A stretch of 64,000 nt of DNA from Thysanoteuthis rhombus. Taxonomy: Eukaryota; Mollusca; Cephalopoda; Oegopsida; Thysanoteuthidae. A program made the translations under genes and the position numbers. The notes below the pieces were generated by a model. It saw only the letters and a list, made by a program, of their open reading frames with translations. It searched no databases and was not told where the DNA came from. The DNA lies in contig OY735216.1 in the NCBI GenBank assembly GCA_963457665.1, positions 40,676,294 through 40,740,293 on the forward strand, read 5' to 3'. Within the stretch, counting starts at the first letter, position 1. Each line of letters opens with the position of its first letter. Below, in pieces: positions 29,853 through 58,395 of this stretch.

Positions 29853-29919
<67 letters not shown>

Positions 29920-29999
29920 TGTGTGTGTGTGTGTAATAATCATACAGACATTTGTGTACTGATAATATAATCCACTGAATTCTCTGTTCTATATATATG

Positions 30000-30032
<33 letters not shown>

Positions 30033-30135
30033 AATAATCATACAGACATTTGTGTACTGATTATATGATTCACTGAATTCTCTGTTCTATATATATATAT
30101 ATGTGTGTGTGTTTGTGTGTTTAATAGTTATACAG
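29850..30135 (+). repeat. Tandem repeat of about 90-98 bp with embedded microsatellites
   Basis: Unit: TAATAATCATACAGACATTT, GTGTACTGAT-ATAT-AT-CACTG, AATTCTCTGTTCTATATATA, then (TG)n. Units start at 29934 and 30032; a third, degenerate start (TAATAGTTATACAGACGTTT) is at 30122. A (TA)n(TG)n tract precedes unit 1, so the whole may have grown by slippage or unequal exchange around the compound microsatellite. Confidence 0.75.
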
Positions 30136-30599
30136 ACGTTTATGTAAGACATATACCTTGCTCAGCACTAAAGTTACAGGGTAGCAAATCGAGCGGCTCT
30201 TGGTAAGGCTTACAAATAAAGAACTGAACGTAAAGTGCAGCACAAACATAAAACACCAGTGAATGTTTTTAGTTCATAAGCAAAAATTTCTAATCTCTTT
30301 AAAAAATCACACGCTCATATGTCTTGATCATAGGTTATACACATAATTGTCTCAACAAAATTGTTTTGAAGGAAGGTTAGAATTATTCAGATTAATGGTA
30401 TCGATCGGGTAATTAACTAGTTTCATAAAATTTGAATTCATAGCTAGTTTCTTTGTTTTGCTTCGAATTTGATCTGATTTTTTGTTGAACAATTTCATTG
30501 TAATATTTTGTTACATTATCATAACCGTTGATTACTTGAAAAATCCTATCTGACATGTTTTGAACCAAATAATCGAGTGATTCAGCAGACACCTTAACC

Positions 30600-33494: not shown

Positions 33495-33745
33495 TGTCTT
33501 CCAGTATCCTAAACATTATTGCCATTAGATACTTTCAAGACGTAAGGTATAAAGTGTTGTGGATAATTCTGTTTATATCTGAATCTATGTATGTATGAAT
33601 GTCTATGACTGCCTTTAAAGTTAAAATTTCTTTTGACACTTACTGAAATGGTTCAGAGCGGTTCTTTTTAGTCAGTTTCACCATAATCGATAAGTTTACA
33701 AGCATTTTGCATTATGTTCTGTTAAATATTTCTGTACGTATAAGT

Positions 33746-34146
33746 CATCATCATCAGTCTTTTAACGTCAGTCGTTGGACATAGACCTTCCCCAGGATCT
33801 GCCACATTTCTCTATCATGGGCGTCGCGGATCCAGTATTTTCTAAATTTGTCTAGTTCGCCACTCTCTCTTGTATTCTGTCGGCCTCAGTTTCGCATGTG
33901 ATCTCCGGGGATCCATGTTGTGAGTCACGATGCCCATTGGTTGTCTGTCATTCTTGCAACATGACCTGCCCATTGCCATTTAAGTTTTCTAATAGATTCT
34001 ATAGTGTCTCTGACTCCCATTTTCTTTCTGATATACTGTGCTGTCTTGTGATCTCTCTATGTAAGGTTGAGCATGATTCTCTCATGCGCGCATTGCATAT
34101 TTCTCAGTTTGATGGTCTGTCTCTTGGTTAGGTTCCATGTTTCAGT
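33746..34146 (-). pseudogene. RTE-type LINE 3' end, 5'-truncated
   Basis: Minus-strand copy with a short (GAT)n tail (CATCATCATCAG at 33746). It matches other copies at the DNA level (GTTGGACATAGACCTTCCCC; GATCTGCCACATTTCTCTAT; CATGACCTGCCCATTGCCAT) and ends near CTTGGTTAGGTTCCATGTTT. Frames are broken. Confidence 0.75.
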
Positions 34147-34619: not shown

Positions 34620-34958
34620 TATTATTATCATTATTATTTGCAATCTCACACCAGTTGCCTGGTGCTAACTGCTGGAGTTTGAGTGACAGCAAGTCTCCTC
34701 AAGTCTCCAGCCCTCCTCTCCTAGTACTCATAGGTCGCATTAATACTGCGATTTACAGTTTCACACCGGTTGCCCAGTGGTTATCGCTGAAGGCTGAGTG
34801 ACAATGAGTTTCCTCAGGTCTTCAGCCAACGTCTCCTTTCTCCTTCGCCCATCATGTCAGTGCTACAATTTGAATTTCCGCTTTCATTTCCCTTCCTCTG
34901 CTTGGTCACTATTGACAGTTAGCGTTGCAGTCCCTACATTTCTAGCACCTTCCTCAGT
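34620..34958 (-). pseudogene. R4/Dong-like LINE 3' fragment, unit 3 of array
   Basis: Minus-strand fragment. It contains two versions of a motif reading (plus strand) CACACCAGTTGCC-GGTG, GAGTGACAGCAAGTCTCCTC, also found in the two fragments to its right. Its 3' end meets a (TTA)n-like tract at 34620-34637 and its 5' end meets the (TTA)n array at 34960. This is the shortest unit, holding only the last codons (EDLRKLIVTQPSAITTGQPV) and the 3' UTR. Confidence 0.55.
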
Positions 34959-34959
34959 A

Positions 34960-34967
34960 TATTATTA

Positions 34968-35035
<68 letters not shown>
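34960..35035. repeat. (TTA)n microsatellite
   Basis: About 23 TTA units exactly between two R4/Dong-like fragments. On the minus strand it is (TAA)n, the target sequence known for Dong elements. Confidence 0.95.
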
Positions 35036-36080
35036 TTCTGGAATCCCACACCAGTAGCCTGATGGTTACTGCTGGAGATTGAGTGACAGCTAATCTCCTC
35101 AAGTCCCCAGCCCTCCTTTCCTCATTCTCATAGACCACCAGTAATTGTGTGGTTTACAGTTTCACACCAGTTGCCCGGTGGTTATCACCGAAGGCTGAGT
35201 GACAGTAAGTCTTCTCAGGTCTTCAACCCTCATCTCATCCCTTGCTCGCCAATCACATGGGTCGCATCTCCGCTTCCATTTTACTTCCTCCTCTGTTAGG
35301 CCACTGCTAACATCTAGTGTCATAGACCTTATATTTCTTGTACTTTCCTTCAGTGTCTTTGGGACAGCTCCTAGTGCGCCTATTATTACTGATAGAACCC
35401 TGACTTTCATATTCTACATCTTCCTCAGTTCTCCTGCCATATCTTGGTATTTTTCCAGTTTTTCACTCTCCCTCCTTTTTTTCTCTGTGGTCTGCACACA
35501 CAGCCACGTCTATTATTTTGCAGGTTTTCCTCTTCCTGTCCACGATTACCAGGTCTGATCTTCTTGCCAGGATGAGGTGGTCTGTTTGGCTATCAAAGTC
35601 CTAAAGTAATTTGTGGTTTCCATTTTCCAGGGCTGTCTCCGGTTTGTGCTGATACCACCTATCCCCATGGTTAAATTTCATTCGTATACTCTGTTCCCAG
35701 TGTATTACTGTTGCTACTCTATTGTGCCTGTGTTTATACTCCTTTTGGGCTCGTGGACTACATTCACTAGTTATATAGTTTAAGGCCTCATGACTTTCAC
35801 CGCACAGGCGGCACTTGCTGTTTGTGTCGATTTTTGTTTTGATATAGTTTGTCCTGATGCATGTGTTTTGTGCTGCTATGATGAGCGATTCCGTTTCTCT
35901 CTTCAGGTTTTCTTTACGTAGCCATGTCCATGATCTCCCGTCTACCACATCATCTATCTATCTTTTAAATTCTCCGTATGATTTTTTTTCTTTTCCCATT
36001 TTTCTTTCCTTGTTTGCTGTGCTGTTCCATTGTTTTCTACTTTTTGGTTGTTCGTTCCGCTGCTTCGGGCACTCTTTATG
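35036..36080 (-). pseudogene. R4/Dong-like LINE C-terminal region, unit 2 of array
   Basis: The longest unit. The minus frame at 35948-35601 keeps WTWLRKENLKRETESLIIAA, then KCRLCGESHEALNYITSECS, a C-x2-C...H...C zinc knuckle of the type just before the restriction-enzyme-like endonuclease in R2/R4/Dong elements, and KEYKHRHNRVATVIHW. Past 35600 a frame change leads to the ARRSDLVIVD region (the endonuclease PD...D core, here S-D in place of P-D), then KLEKYQDMA. The ORF ends near 35200 in the VIIGALGAVPKTLKE region. It runs 5' truncated to about 36080 and its 3' end stops at (TTA)n. Inactive. Confidence 0.65.
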
Positions 36081-36576
36081 ATGGCTTCACAGTTAGTTTG
36101 CACGCAGTCACTTGGTGATTATCGGTGGAGATTGAGTGACAGCAAGTCTCCTCAAATCTGCAGCCCTCCCCTCCACAATTTCATAGTCATCAGCAGTACT
36201 GTGATTTACAGTTTCACACCAGTTGCCCGGTGGTTATCACTGAAGGCTGAGTGACAGTAAGTCTCCTCTTCTCAACTCATCTCTCCCTCACCTATCATAG
36301 CAGTGCTGTGGATCATACATCCACCACTATTAGGGCATGTCTTTTTCTTTCTCTTCTGTTCGGTCACTGCTAACAGCTTGGGTCGTATATTTCATATTTC
36401 TGGCACTTTCCTCGATATTCGTGCAGTTCTAAGCAGTGCAGTGGTCTGCACAGTCTCAAACCTCCTTTTATCCCTAGTTCCTCCAATCTCACTTTCGGTG
36501 TCTTGGGTACGGTTCTGAGTGCACCTATTATTACTGGTACTACCCAGACTTTCATGTTCCACATCTTCTTTTCCTT
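36081..36576 (-). pseudogene. R4/Dong-like LINE 3' fragment, unit 1 of array
   Basis: Starts on the minus strand directly after the (TAA)n tract at 36578-36640 with KKMWNMKVWVVPVIIGALRT, the same C-terminal motif as unit 2, so the copy is truncated just upstream of its stop. The 3' UTR repeats (CACACCAGTTGCCCGGTGG; GAGTGACAGTAAGTCTCCTC) follow. It joins unit 2 near 36081-36110 without an intervening TTA run. Confidence 0.6.
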
Positions 36577-36577
36577 T

Positions 36578-36578
36578 C

Positions 36579-36640
<62 letters not shown>
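36578..36640. repeat. (TTA)n microsatellite
   Basis: About 21 TTA units bordering unit 1 of the LINE array at the 5' truncation point. The Asn-run frame on the minus strand comes from this tract. Confidence 0.95.

Positions 36641-44045: not shown

Positions 44046-44125
<80 letters not shown>
44046..44125. repeat. (TAG)n(TTA)n microsatellite
   Basis: GTAGTAGTAG for about 37 bp, then (TTA)n for about 40 bp, one trinucleotide array changing unit midway. Confidence 0.95.
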
Positions 44126-44207
44126 CAGTAGTAGAAATAGTAGTATCTCAAATACCAACGTCATCGTTGCATTACTTTTACGTAATCTTAAAAAATAAAA
44201 CTATTTT

Positions 44208-44242
44208 GAATAATAATAATAATAATGATAATAATAATAATG

Positions 44243-44300
<58 letters not shown>

Positions 44301-44325
44301 CAACAACAACAACAACAACAACAGC
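44208..44325. repeat. (AAT)n(AAC)n microsatellite
   Basis: AAT units with several GAT changes at 44208-44299, then ACAACAACAAC to 44322. Poly-Asn frames across it are artefacts. Confidence 0.95.
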
Positions 44326-46312: not shown

Positions 46313-46759
46313 CTTAGTATTGAAGAAGGGTGCATAACCAAGGCATCCTCCCAATAGTCACTTATGGAGCCGAAACATGGAACCTGACCAAGAGACAGAT
46401 CTACAAATTGAGAACCATGCAACGCGCACATGAGAAAATTATGCTAGGTGTCACATGGAGAGACCACAAGACAGCACAGTACATCTGGGGAAAAGACAAG
46501 AGTCAGGGACATCGTAGAATCCGTTAAAAAACTCAAATGGCTGTGGGCTGGCCATGTTGCAAGAATGGCAGACAACCGATGGACATCGCGACTCACGACA
46601 TGGATCCTCCGAGATCACATGCGGAACAAAGGCTGGCAGAATATTAGATGGAGGGACGAGCTAGACTAATTCAGAAAGTACTGGCTCCGCGACGCCTGCG
46701 ATAGAGAAATGTGGCGAATCCTGGGGGGGGTGTATGTCCAACGACGGACGTTGAAAGAC

Positions 46760-46822
<63 letters not shown>
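46313..46822 (+). pseudogene. RTE-type LINE 3' end, best preserved
   Basis: Plus-strand copy of about 510 bp with a long (GAT)n tail (46758-46822). It is the clearest version of the family. VTYGAETWNLTKRQIYKLRT, MQRAHEKIMLGVTWRDHKTA and QYIWGK lie in one frame; a single 1-bp shift then gives VRDIVESVKKLKWLWAGHVA, RMADNRWTSRLTTWILRDHM and RNKGWQNIRWRDELD. YWLRDACDREMWRILGG and VQRRTLKD follow. The good preservation and long pure tail suggest a relatively recent insertion. Confidence 0.85.
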
Positions 46823-52102: not shown

Positions 52103-52450
52103 AGATGCTATAAAGAAAATGTCCAAATTTGACCAAATTATGTTTGAGTCCCTTCTATTATTCAATTAGATGCTATAAAGAAACACAAAATGTCCAAATT
52201 TGACCAAATTATGTGTGTGTCCCTTCCATTATTCAATTAGATGCTATAAAGAAACACAAAATGTCCAAATTTGACCAAATTATGTTTGAGTCCCTTCTAT
52301 TATTCAATTAGATGCTATAAAGAAACACAAAACGTCCAAATTTGACCAAATTATGTGTGTCTCCCTTCCATTATTCAATAAGGTGCAATAAAGAAACACC
52401 AAATGTCCAAATTTGACCGAATTATGTGTGAGTTCCTTCCTTTATATAAA
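52103..52450 (+). repeat. 71-bp tandem repeat, ~5 units, alternating types
   Basis: Units start at about 52103, 52168, 52239, 52310 and 52381; the first is 65 bp and the others 71 bp. Core: AGATGCTATAAAGAAACACA, AAATGTCCAAATTTGACCAA, ATTATGT, TCCCTTC-ATTATTCAATT. Units 1 and 3 carry TTTGAGTCCCTTCTATT and units 2 and 4 carry GTGTG/C-TCCCTTCCATT, giving an ABAB order; unit 5 is degenerate. Identity between like units is very high. Confidence 0.85.
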
Positions 52451-58132: not shown

Positions 58133-58395
58133 GATATGGTCGGATTTTTTTTCATATCTAAACGTTAATTCATTCACAACGTTTCGACTATGTACCCTCT
58201 ATCTTTCCTCAGATGTACATGTGGAACTACTTCCTAGAACGCATGCTCGTATCGGACCGGTCACGTTACGAGGATATGTTCTAGAAAGTGATGCCATATT
58301 CTGGGGCCAAGAACACCCGAGAAAGATCGGAGGGTACATGGCCAAAACGTTGTGAATGAATAAACATGTAGATAGAAAAATAGTCCGACCATATC
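58133..58395. repeat. 263-bp palindromic element
   Basis: Nearly the whole segment is self-complementary. The outer arm (GATATGGTCGGATTTTTTTT and ATTCATTCACAACGTTTCGA, CTATGTACCCTC) pairs with GAGGGTACATGGCC, AAAACGTTGTGAATGAATAA and TAGTCCGACCATATC. The inner arm ACTTCCTAGAACGCATGCTC pairs with GAGGATATGTTCTAGAAAGT. The centre is the perfect palindrome GACCGGTC near 58255-58262. Mismatches are few and mostly transitions. A fold-back MITE or a head-to-head dimer of a ~130-bp unit is inferred. Confidence 0.75.

Follow-up and report, generated by a model that had tools for sequence, protein, structure and literature searches.

The window, by which we mean the whole stretch of 64,000 nucleotides of the Thysanoteuthis rhombus genome analysed here, contains at positions 34620 to 36640 three minus-strand copies, dead and truncated at their 5' ends, that form a chain and belong to one R4/Dong-like non-LTR retrotransposon family with a restriction-like endonuclease. 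On the minus strand, the order from 5' to 3' is (TAA)20, copy C, copy B, (TAA)~25, copy A, its TAA tail and (CT)n. The first tract counts 20 units at 36579..36638 and flanks C on its 5' side. Copy C (36105..36578) retains the end of the open reading frame (VVPVIIGALRTVPKT...) and the 3' UTR, and lacks the last ~10 nt together with the tail. Copy B (35040..36104), the longest fragment, consists of a C-terminal part of the open reading frame followed by the 3' UTR; its tail of about 25 TAA units (34961..35037, 22 perfect units inside) is at the same time the 5' flank of copy A. The latter (34642..34960) comprises the last codons (RKVLEM and the stop) and the 3' UTR, and its TAA tail (34620..34641) is short and imperfect and gives way to (CT)n.

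The end of the open reading frame and the 3' UTR are the parts that can be aligned across the three copies. Identity is 75.7% between A and B (346 aligned nt), 71.8% between B and C (319 nt) and 76.5% between A and C (213 nt), which bears out the proposal of the initial annotation that three R4/Dong-like LINE fragments of minus-strand orientation stand here: they are real, 5'-truncated and of one family. Over the 284 columns filled in all three, A and B differ by 25%, A and C by 28% and B and C by 21%. This divergence of 21-28%, together with starts that differ from copy to copy (reference positions 2732 in C, 2052 in B and 2886 in A), speaks against an origin of the chain by tandem duplication or by unequal crossing-over between copies. 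We regard such an origin as very improbable, even though junctions without TAA, such as the one between C and B and that at another locus, L027, could be products of recombination or deletion.

Copy A starts within the TAA tract downstream of B, whereas C abuts B directly (36105/36104), with no TAA at the junction. In many other genomic matches, the start coincides with B's first base (query 537-538) or the end with C's last (536), so this junction is sharp. TAA is thus found at the 3' end of two of the three copies (A and B) and at the 5' start of two (A and C). The initial annotation had all three copies sharing a 3' end and anchored in (TAA)n, with (TTA)n runs at 34620-34637, 34960-35035 and 36578-36640. 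The copies do align at their 3' ends, apart from the missing terminus of C, and all three runs exist, the first being short and imperfect; the third, however, lies on the 5' side of C, and the anchoring holds for A and B but not for the C/B junction.

The reading frame of B is broken by a TAG and by frameshifts, and about 80 nt at its end, kept in C, are absent from B. Of the R2/R4-type frame end recognized earlier, B has VIIGALGAVPKT and C VIIGALRTVPKT. The knuckle annotated as C-x2-C...H...C in the longest copy is a decayed CCHC motif, CRLCGESHEALNYITSEC (35760..35813, minus strand): three cysteines are in place, while a tyrosine occupies the histidine position and the histidine originally chosen lies elsewhere, judged by L020, a better preserved relative in the same genome. 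Likewise, the restriction-like endonuclease motif of B (35508..35558, minus strand) has decayed to SD-X14-D, compared with PD-X14-D in L020. An AlphaFold model of the C-terminal piece of B was discarded (mean pLDDT 34), and no relative came up in protein searches of viral contigs and phages.

The 3' UTR of each copy contains two tandem subunits of 115 nt, spaced by 115-116 nt (minus strand; A 34634..34828, B 35034-35229, C 36087-36281), each of which is predicted to form two hairpins, one long and one short, the latter with a GCAA loop. Against shuffled sequences, the folding z-scores are -4.5 and -3.3 in A, -2.2 and -1.5 in B, and 0.2 and -0.6 in C. Across 15 chosen sequences, 95.2% of the cells pair, as opposed to at most 38.9% when slid, and covariation in these hairpins is not clearly above shuffles (3 double-changed pairs, 131/500; 2 pairs, 219/500). 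The predicted hairpins may be RNA signals for the reverse transcriptase.

Several other repeats occur in the window: a 98-bp minisatellite with TG and TA runs mixed with other sequence (29910-30146), a compound microsatellite of AGT, ATT, AAT and AAC units that includes long TAA-type tracts (44046-44323), a 71-bp tandem repeat of 4.6 copies with 91% matches (52116-52445) and an imperfect palindrome spanning roughly 263 bp, whose opposite-strand self match is 74% (58133-58395).

Element type and clade

The reverse transcriptase is missing from the window copies themselves, and the R2 match of B's own piece is weak (E 0.093). L020 has an open frame of 969 aa, which extends upstream in a further copy, L059. 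This frame matches RVT_1 in Pfam (4.2e-28) and, below the Pfam cut-off, zf-RVT (8.8e-05); it contains a C-x2-C-x8-H-x4-C knuckle as well as PD-X14-D, and the best PDB matches over its reverse transcriptase are R2 proteins (2.1e-24). Elements of the R4/Dong clade are marked by a C-terminal CCHC knuckle and a restriction-like endonuclease with the motif PD-X12-14-D. L020, with a LINE-type reverse transcriptase in a long open reading frame, the knuckle and PD-X14-D, thus supports the R4/Dong-like type given by the initial annotation. The feature of the Dong branch, insertion into (TAA)n, is seen at 27/29 and 20/20 3' ends and 16/22 5' ends in the genome samples described below, and at 20/36 3' ends among mostly older copies.

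Elements of the RTE clade encode an apurinic-type endonuclease at the N-terminus and lack a restriction-like endonuclease at the C-terminus. The family at the locus, hereafter the TAA family, possesses the C-terminal PD-X14-D, and no Pfam endonuclease match was obtained in L059:2305-3030 or L020:3-2909. At the N-terminus of R4/Dong proteins, the available part of PMC7998251 describes a divergent Myb/SANT-like domain and no zinc finger. By eye, L059:2305-3030 has a KRWTREENRLV stretch and no C2H2 pattern; Pfam and PDB searches of this region returned no Myb match. R4 and Dong are reported in the accessible text of PMC3774820 to carry an HDV-like self-cleaving ribozyme at their 5' ends; L059, a copy whose 5' end was not located, gave no ribozyme match. 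R2 targets the 28S rRNA gene, as stated in the portions at hand of PMC5035012 and PMC3774820, whereas the sampled copies of the TAA family end in TAA tracts, and within the window no Rfam family reached its gathering score; the family's likeness to R2 lies in the reverse transcriptase and not in the target. Judged by its sequence, the TAA family fits a LINE with a restriction-like endonuclease, and the architecture (the L020 reverse transcriptase, CCHC and PD-X14-D) combined with the TAA target would fit membership in R4/Dong.

Flanks of genomic copies

We tabulated the flanks of family members in the window's own assembly (2.73 Gb, 514 contigs). First-look candidates numbered 19,261 for a 2-kb query, 3,657 for copy A and 1,701 for the 3' end of L020; the best 40 of each were scored, and the three resulting samples comprise 20, 29 and 20 of the 39 scored places besides the query's own. 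They are best-scoring hits and not random draws, and were chosen by similarity, not by flank. The first sample, B-like and mostly older, consists of 20 places plus the window, with 42 mapped copies, 36 of them with a complete 3' end. The second, A-like, has 29 places with 22 visible 5' ends, and the third is made up of the 3' flanks of 20 copies that are 99-100% identical to the 3' end of L020 and presumably young by virtue of this near-identity. An end was counted as TAA when at least three units fell within the 50 nt around it; TTA was scored likewise on the same strand. The chance level is low: at least three TAA units on the tested strand occur in 1.15% of random 50-mers from loci L009-L028 and the window stretch.

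TAA was found at the 3' end of 27/29 A-like copies (the exceptions being L030 and L050), of 20/20 young copies and of 20/36 B-like copies, and TTA at none of these ends (0/29, 0/20 and 0/36). On the 5' side, TAA flanks 16 of the 22 visible A-like ends, six being without it, and 13/41 B-like copies; the corresponding counts for TTA are 0/22 and 2/41. TTA rather than TAA on the 5' side, contrary to the usual strand rule, is seen in L013 and in the plus-strand copy of L027. Copies ending in non-TAA sequence, which would contradict TAA targeting, are thus rare in the A-like and young samples, while the 16/36 3'-complete B-like copies with fewer than three units are evidence against it from a mostly older set.

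A second LINE family in the window, which we take to be RTE-like from its WAGHVARM end, provides a control. It is represented by 12 3'-region fragments between 8006 and 62429 (e.g. 33745-34145, minus, and 46372-46771, plus), merged by hand from 14 hits; three of its open reading frames gave no Pfam support for the assignment. At least three GAT units are present at 8 of its 10 complete 3' ends, examined over 70 nt as compared with 50 nt for the TAA family, and at none of its 12 5' ends. Its neighbouring copies are separated by 625 bp or more, occur in both relative orientations and form no chains. The two families therefore differ as would be expected of a repeat that is a target and a repeat that is a tail.

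This comparison bears on an account modelled on RTE elements: TAA would be nothing but a tail at the 3' end of the RNA, and each pair of neighbours would be a dimer that arose in one event when the reverse transcriptase jumped templates. Since TAA flanks 16 of the 22 visible A-like 5' ends, and GAT 0/12 in the control, a tail alone is an insufficient explanation. As to dimers, template jumps are known for the R2 reverse transcriptase, and some neighbours look as such an event would leave them: at L028, copies 97% and then 98% identical to L020 are separated by one TAA unit, and at L020 a minus-strand pair, 96% and 98% identical to the L020 copy, is almost joined. Other pairs, however, combine subfamilies or unequal branch lengths, for instance L018 (77% and 97% identity to L020), L053 (88% and 97%) and B/A in the window, and we consider this account unlikely as a whole.

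Chains of same-strand copies

Neighbouring copies mostly face the same way. Adjacent pairs at most 250 bp apart are on the same strand in 17 cases and on opposite strands in two (L020 and L027) in the B-like sample and the window, and in 16 cases against none in the A-like sample, where 13/29 loci have such a same-strand neighbour. Among the young copies, 11/20 are followed by a same-strand copy in the next 500 nt, which in nine cases starts no more than 130 nt away; an opposite-strand copy follows none of the 20.

At least three TAA units separate the same-strand neighbours in 12/16 A-like pairs and in 7/17 pairs of the B-like sample and window. Fewer units are found in the other four A-like pairs (one each of L036, L041, L050 and L054) and in the ten remaining pairs, i.e. 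L009, L010, L014, L017, the plus strand of L020, L021, L025, L027, one of L028 and C/B in the window. In two of these, L009 (gap -62) and L025 (gap -80), the pair is probably one copy split by mapping. At L070, TAA downstream of a young copy leads, from 31 nt past the 3' end of that copy, into 26 nt that match the element's 3' end, and another copy comes next; the short match is perhaps an extremely truncated insertion. All three samples thus bear out the idea of the initial annotation that insertion recurs in TAA tracts which earlier copies either produced or already had beside them.

Relative age of chain members

We took the terminal branch in a tree of 70 3' UTRs as a proxy for the age of a copy, and as a proxy only. 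In the window, these branches measure 0.124 for C, 0.111 for B and 0.043 for A, so that C and B differ little, and along the chain at L028 they measure 0.158, 0.048, 0.022 and 0.011. Copy A groups with the A-like copies, and by branch length these are young. On these grounds A is probably the youngest of the three copies in the window and probably entered the TAA tail of B after B had inserted. We also considered that A might be the oldest, given its unique substitutions (41 in A, 20 in B and 30 in C of 284 columns), and rejected this because its branch is the shortest of the three in the tree; since it falls among the A-like copies, we read the excess as a subfamily difference. Likewise, we discarded the possibility that B, the TAA tract and A are mobilized together, as the matches of other loci to A are mostly their own 3' UTRs.

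In pairs with a gap below 130 and both members in the tree, the shorter branch is downstream in 12, upstream in 3 and tied in 1 (sign test 0.035), a count in which several pairs stem from one chain, 15 further pairs are unscored and a reversed pair at L045 (gap 179) falls beyond the cut-off. The young sample, itself selected for young copies, often has the greater divergence in the downstream neighbour. In view of the dependence among pairs and the biased sampling, we claim no general direction from 5' to 3'.

Discussion

We propose that the chain arose from an R4/Dong-like element that inserts into (TAA)n and reuses the TAA tracts flanking older copies, a reading to which we assign a probability of roughly 0.8. 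The samples contain TAA on the sense strand at both flanks, chaining on the same strand and chain members with unequal branches; the reuse of TAA tracts by new copies is well supported, and we infer the order of individual insertions. The restriction-like endonuclease would probably nick the TTA strand, and the freed end would serve as the primer from which the element RNA, beginning at its 3' end, is reverse transcribed (target-primed reverse transcription); the RNA tail may pair with the target. Such an insertion would leave TAA downstream on the sense strand and often also upstream of the truncated 5' end. These flanking tracts would be fresh targets, which further copies would enter in the same direction, the target being strand-specific, and head-to-tail chains running one way would result.

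A stricter version of this proposal, in which each insertion lays down or lengthens the 3' TAA, so that the element creates its own target and much of the host's TAA microsatellite is its product, extended in one-way chains, is possible, with odds somewhat short of even. In 38 young copies, the median tract score is 31 on the 3' side and 16.5 on the 5' side, with the 3' tract longer in 26 and the 5' tract in 11, which hints that insertion adds repeat; the hint is weak, given microsatellite drift and imprecise BLAST ends. The competing view is that any long TAA microsatellite serves as a target and that chains form only because such tracts are few, the copies neither making nor lengthening them; this challenges the creation of targets and not the targeting of TAA. 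It agrees with the long tracts at 5' flanks as well and with TAA tracts in the window that have no detected copy of the family (44085-44123 and 44209-44287), the longer 3' tracts arguing weakly against it. We give it, too, slightly less than an even chance.

Targeting of (TAA)n by Dong is not new for molluscs: the accessible part of PMC7998251 names it as the target in Darwinula, an ostracod, and in the majority of insects, molluscs and cnidarians. The TAA family resembles Dong (Bombyx mori) and R4, as described there, in its reverse transcriptase, restriction-like endonuclease and (TAA)n target; copies chained in each other's TAA tracts go unmentioned in that part of the article. Nor do the matches listed, as open-access titles and the beginnings of abstracts, describe Dong/R4 copies that chain within TAA tracts of their own, and PMC4640811, in the portion seen, cites a 2004 screen of sequence-specific LINEs. 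In octopus genomes, Dong-R4 and RTE are both present, as they are in the window, according to the accessible passages of PMC13282606, PMC8967140 and PMC9115989. In the same set, 1,129 recently active Dong-R4 insertions are listed for Octopus vulgaris, while the Dong element of O. bimaculoides is without evidence of recent activity; neither target nor chaining is mentioned in these passages. RTE elements that seed microsatellites, as treated in the available text of PMC2887409, have in common with the TAA family a short tandem repeat at the 3' end of a LINE; the RTE-like family of the window differs from the TAA family in that its 12 copies have neither a repeat on the 5' side nor a head-to-tail arrangement in chains. 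One-way head-to-tail LINE arrays also exist in Drosophila, where HeT-A and TART form them at chromosome ends and not in TAA tracts.

If insertions do leave the next landing site behind, the element would be kept off genes without needing a fixed host target such as rDNA. Furthermore, chains of differently aged copies record insertion events, and both the reuse of targets and the creation of repeats can be tested from genome sequence.
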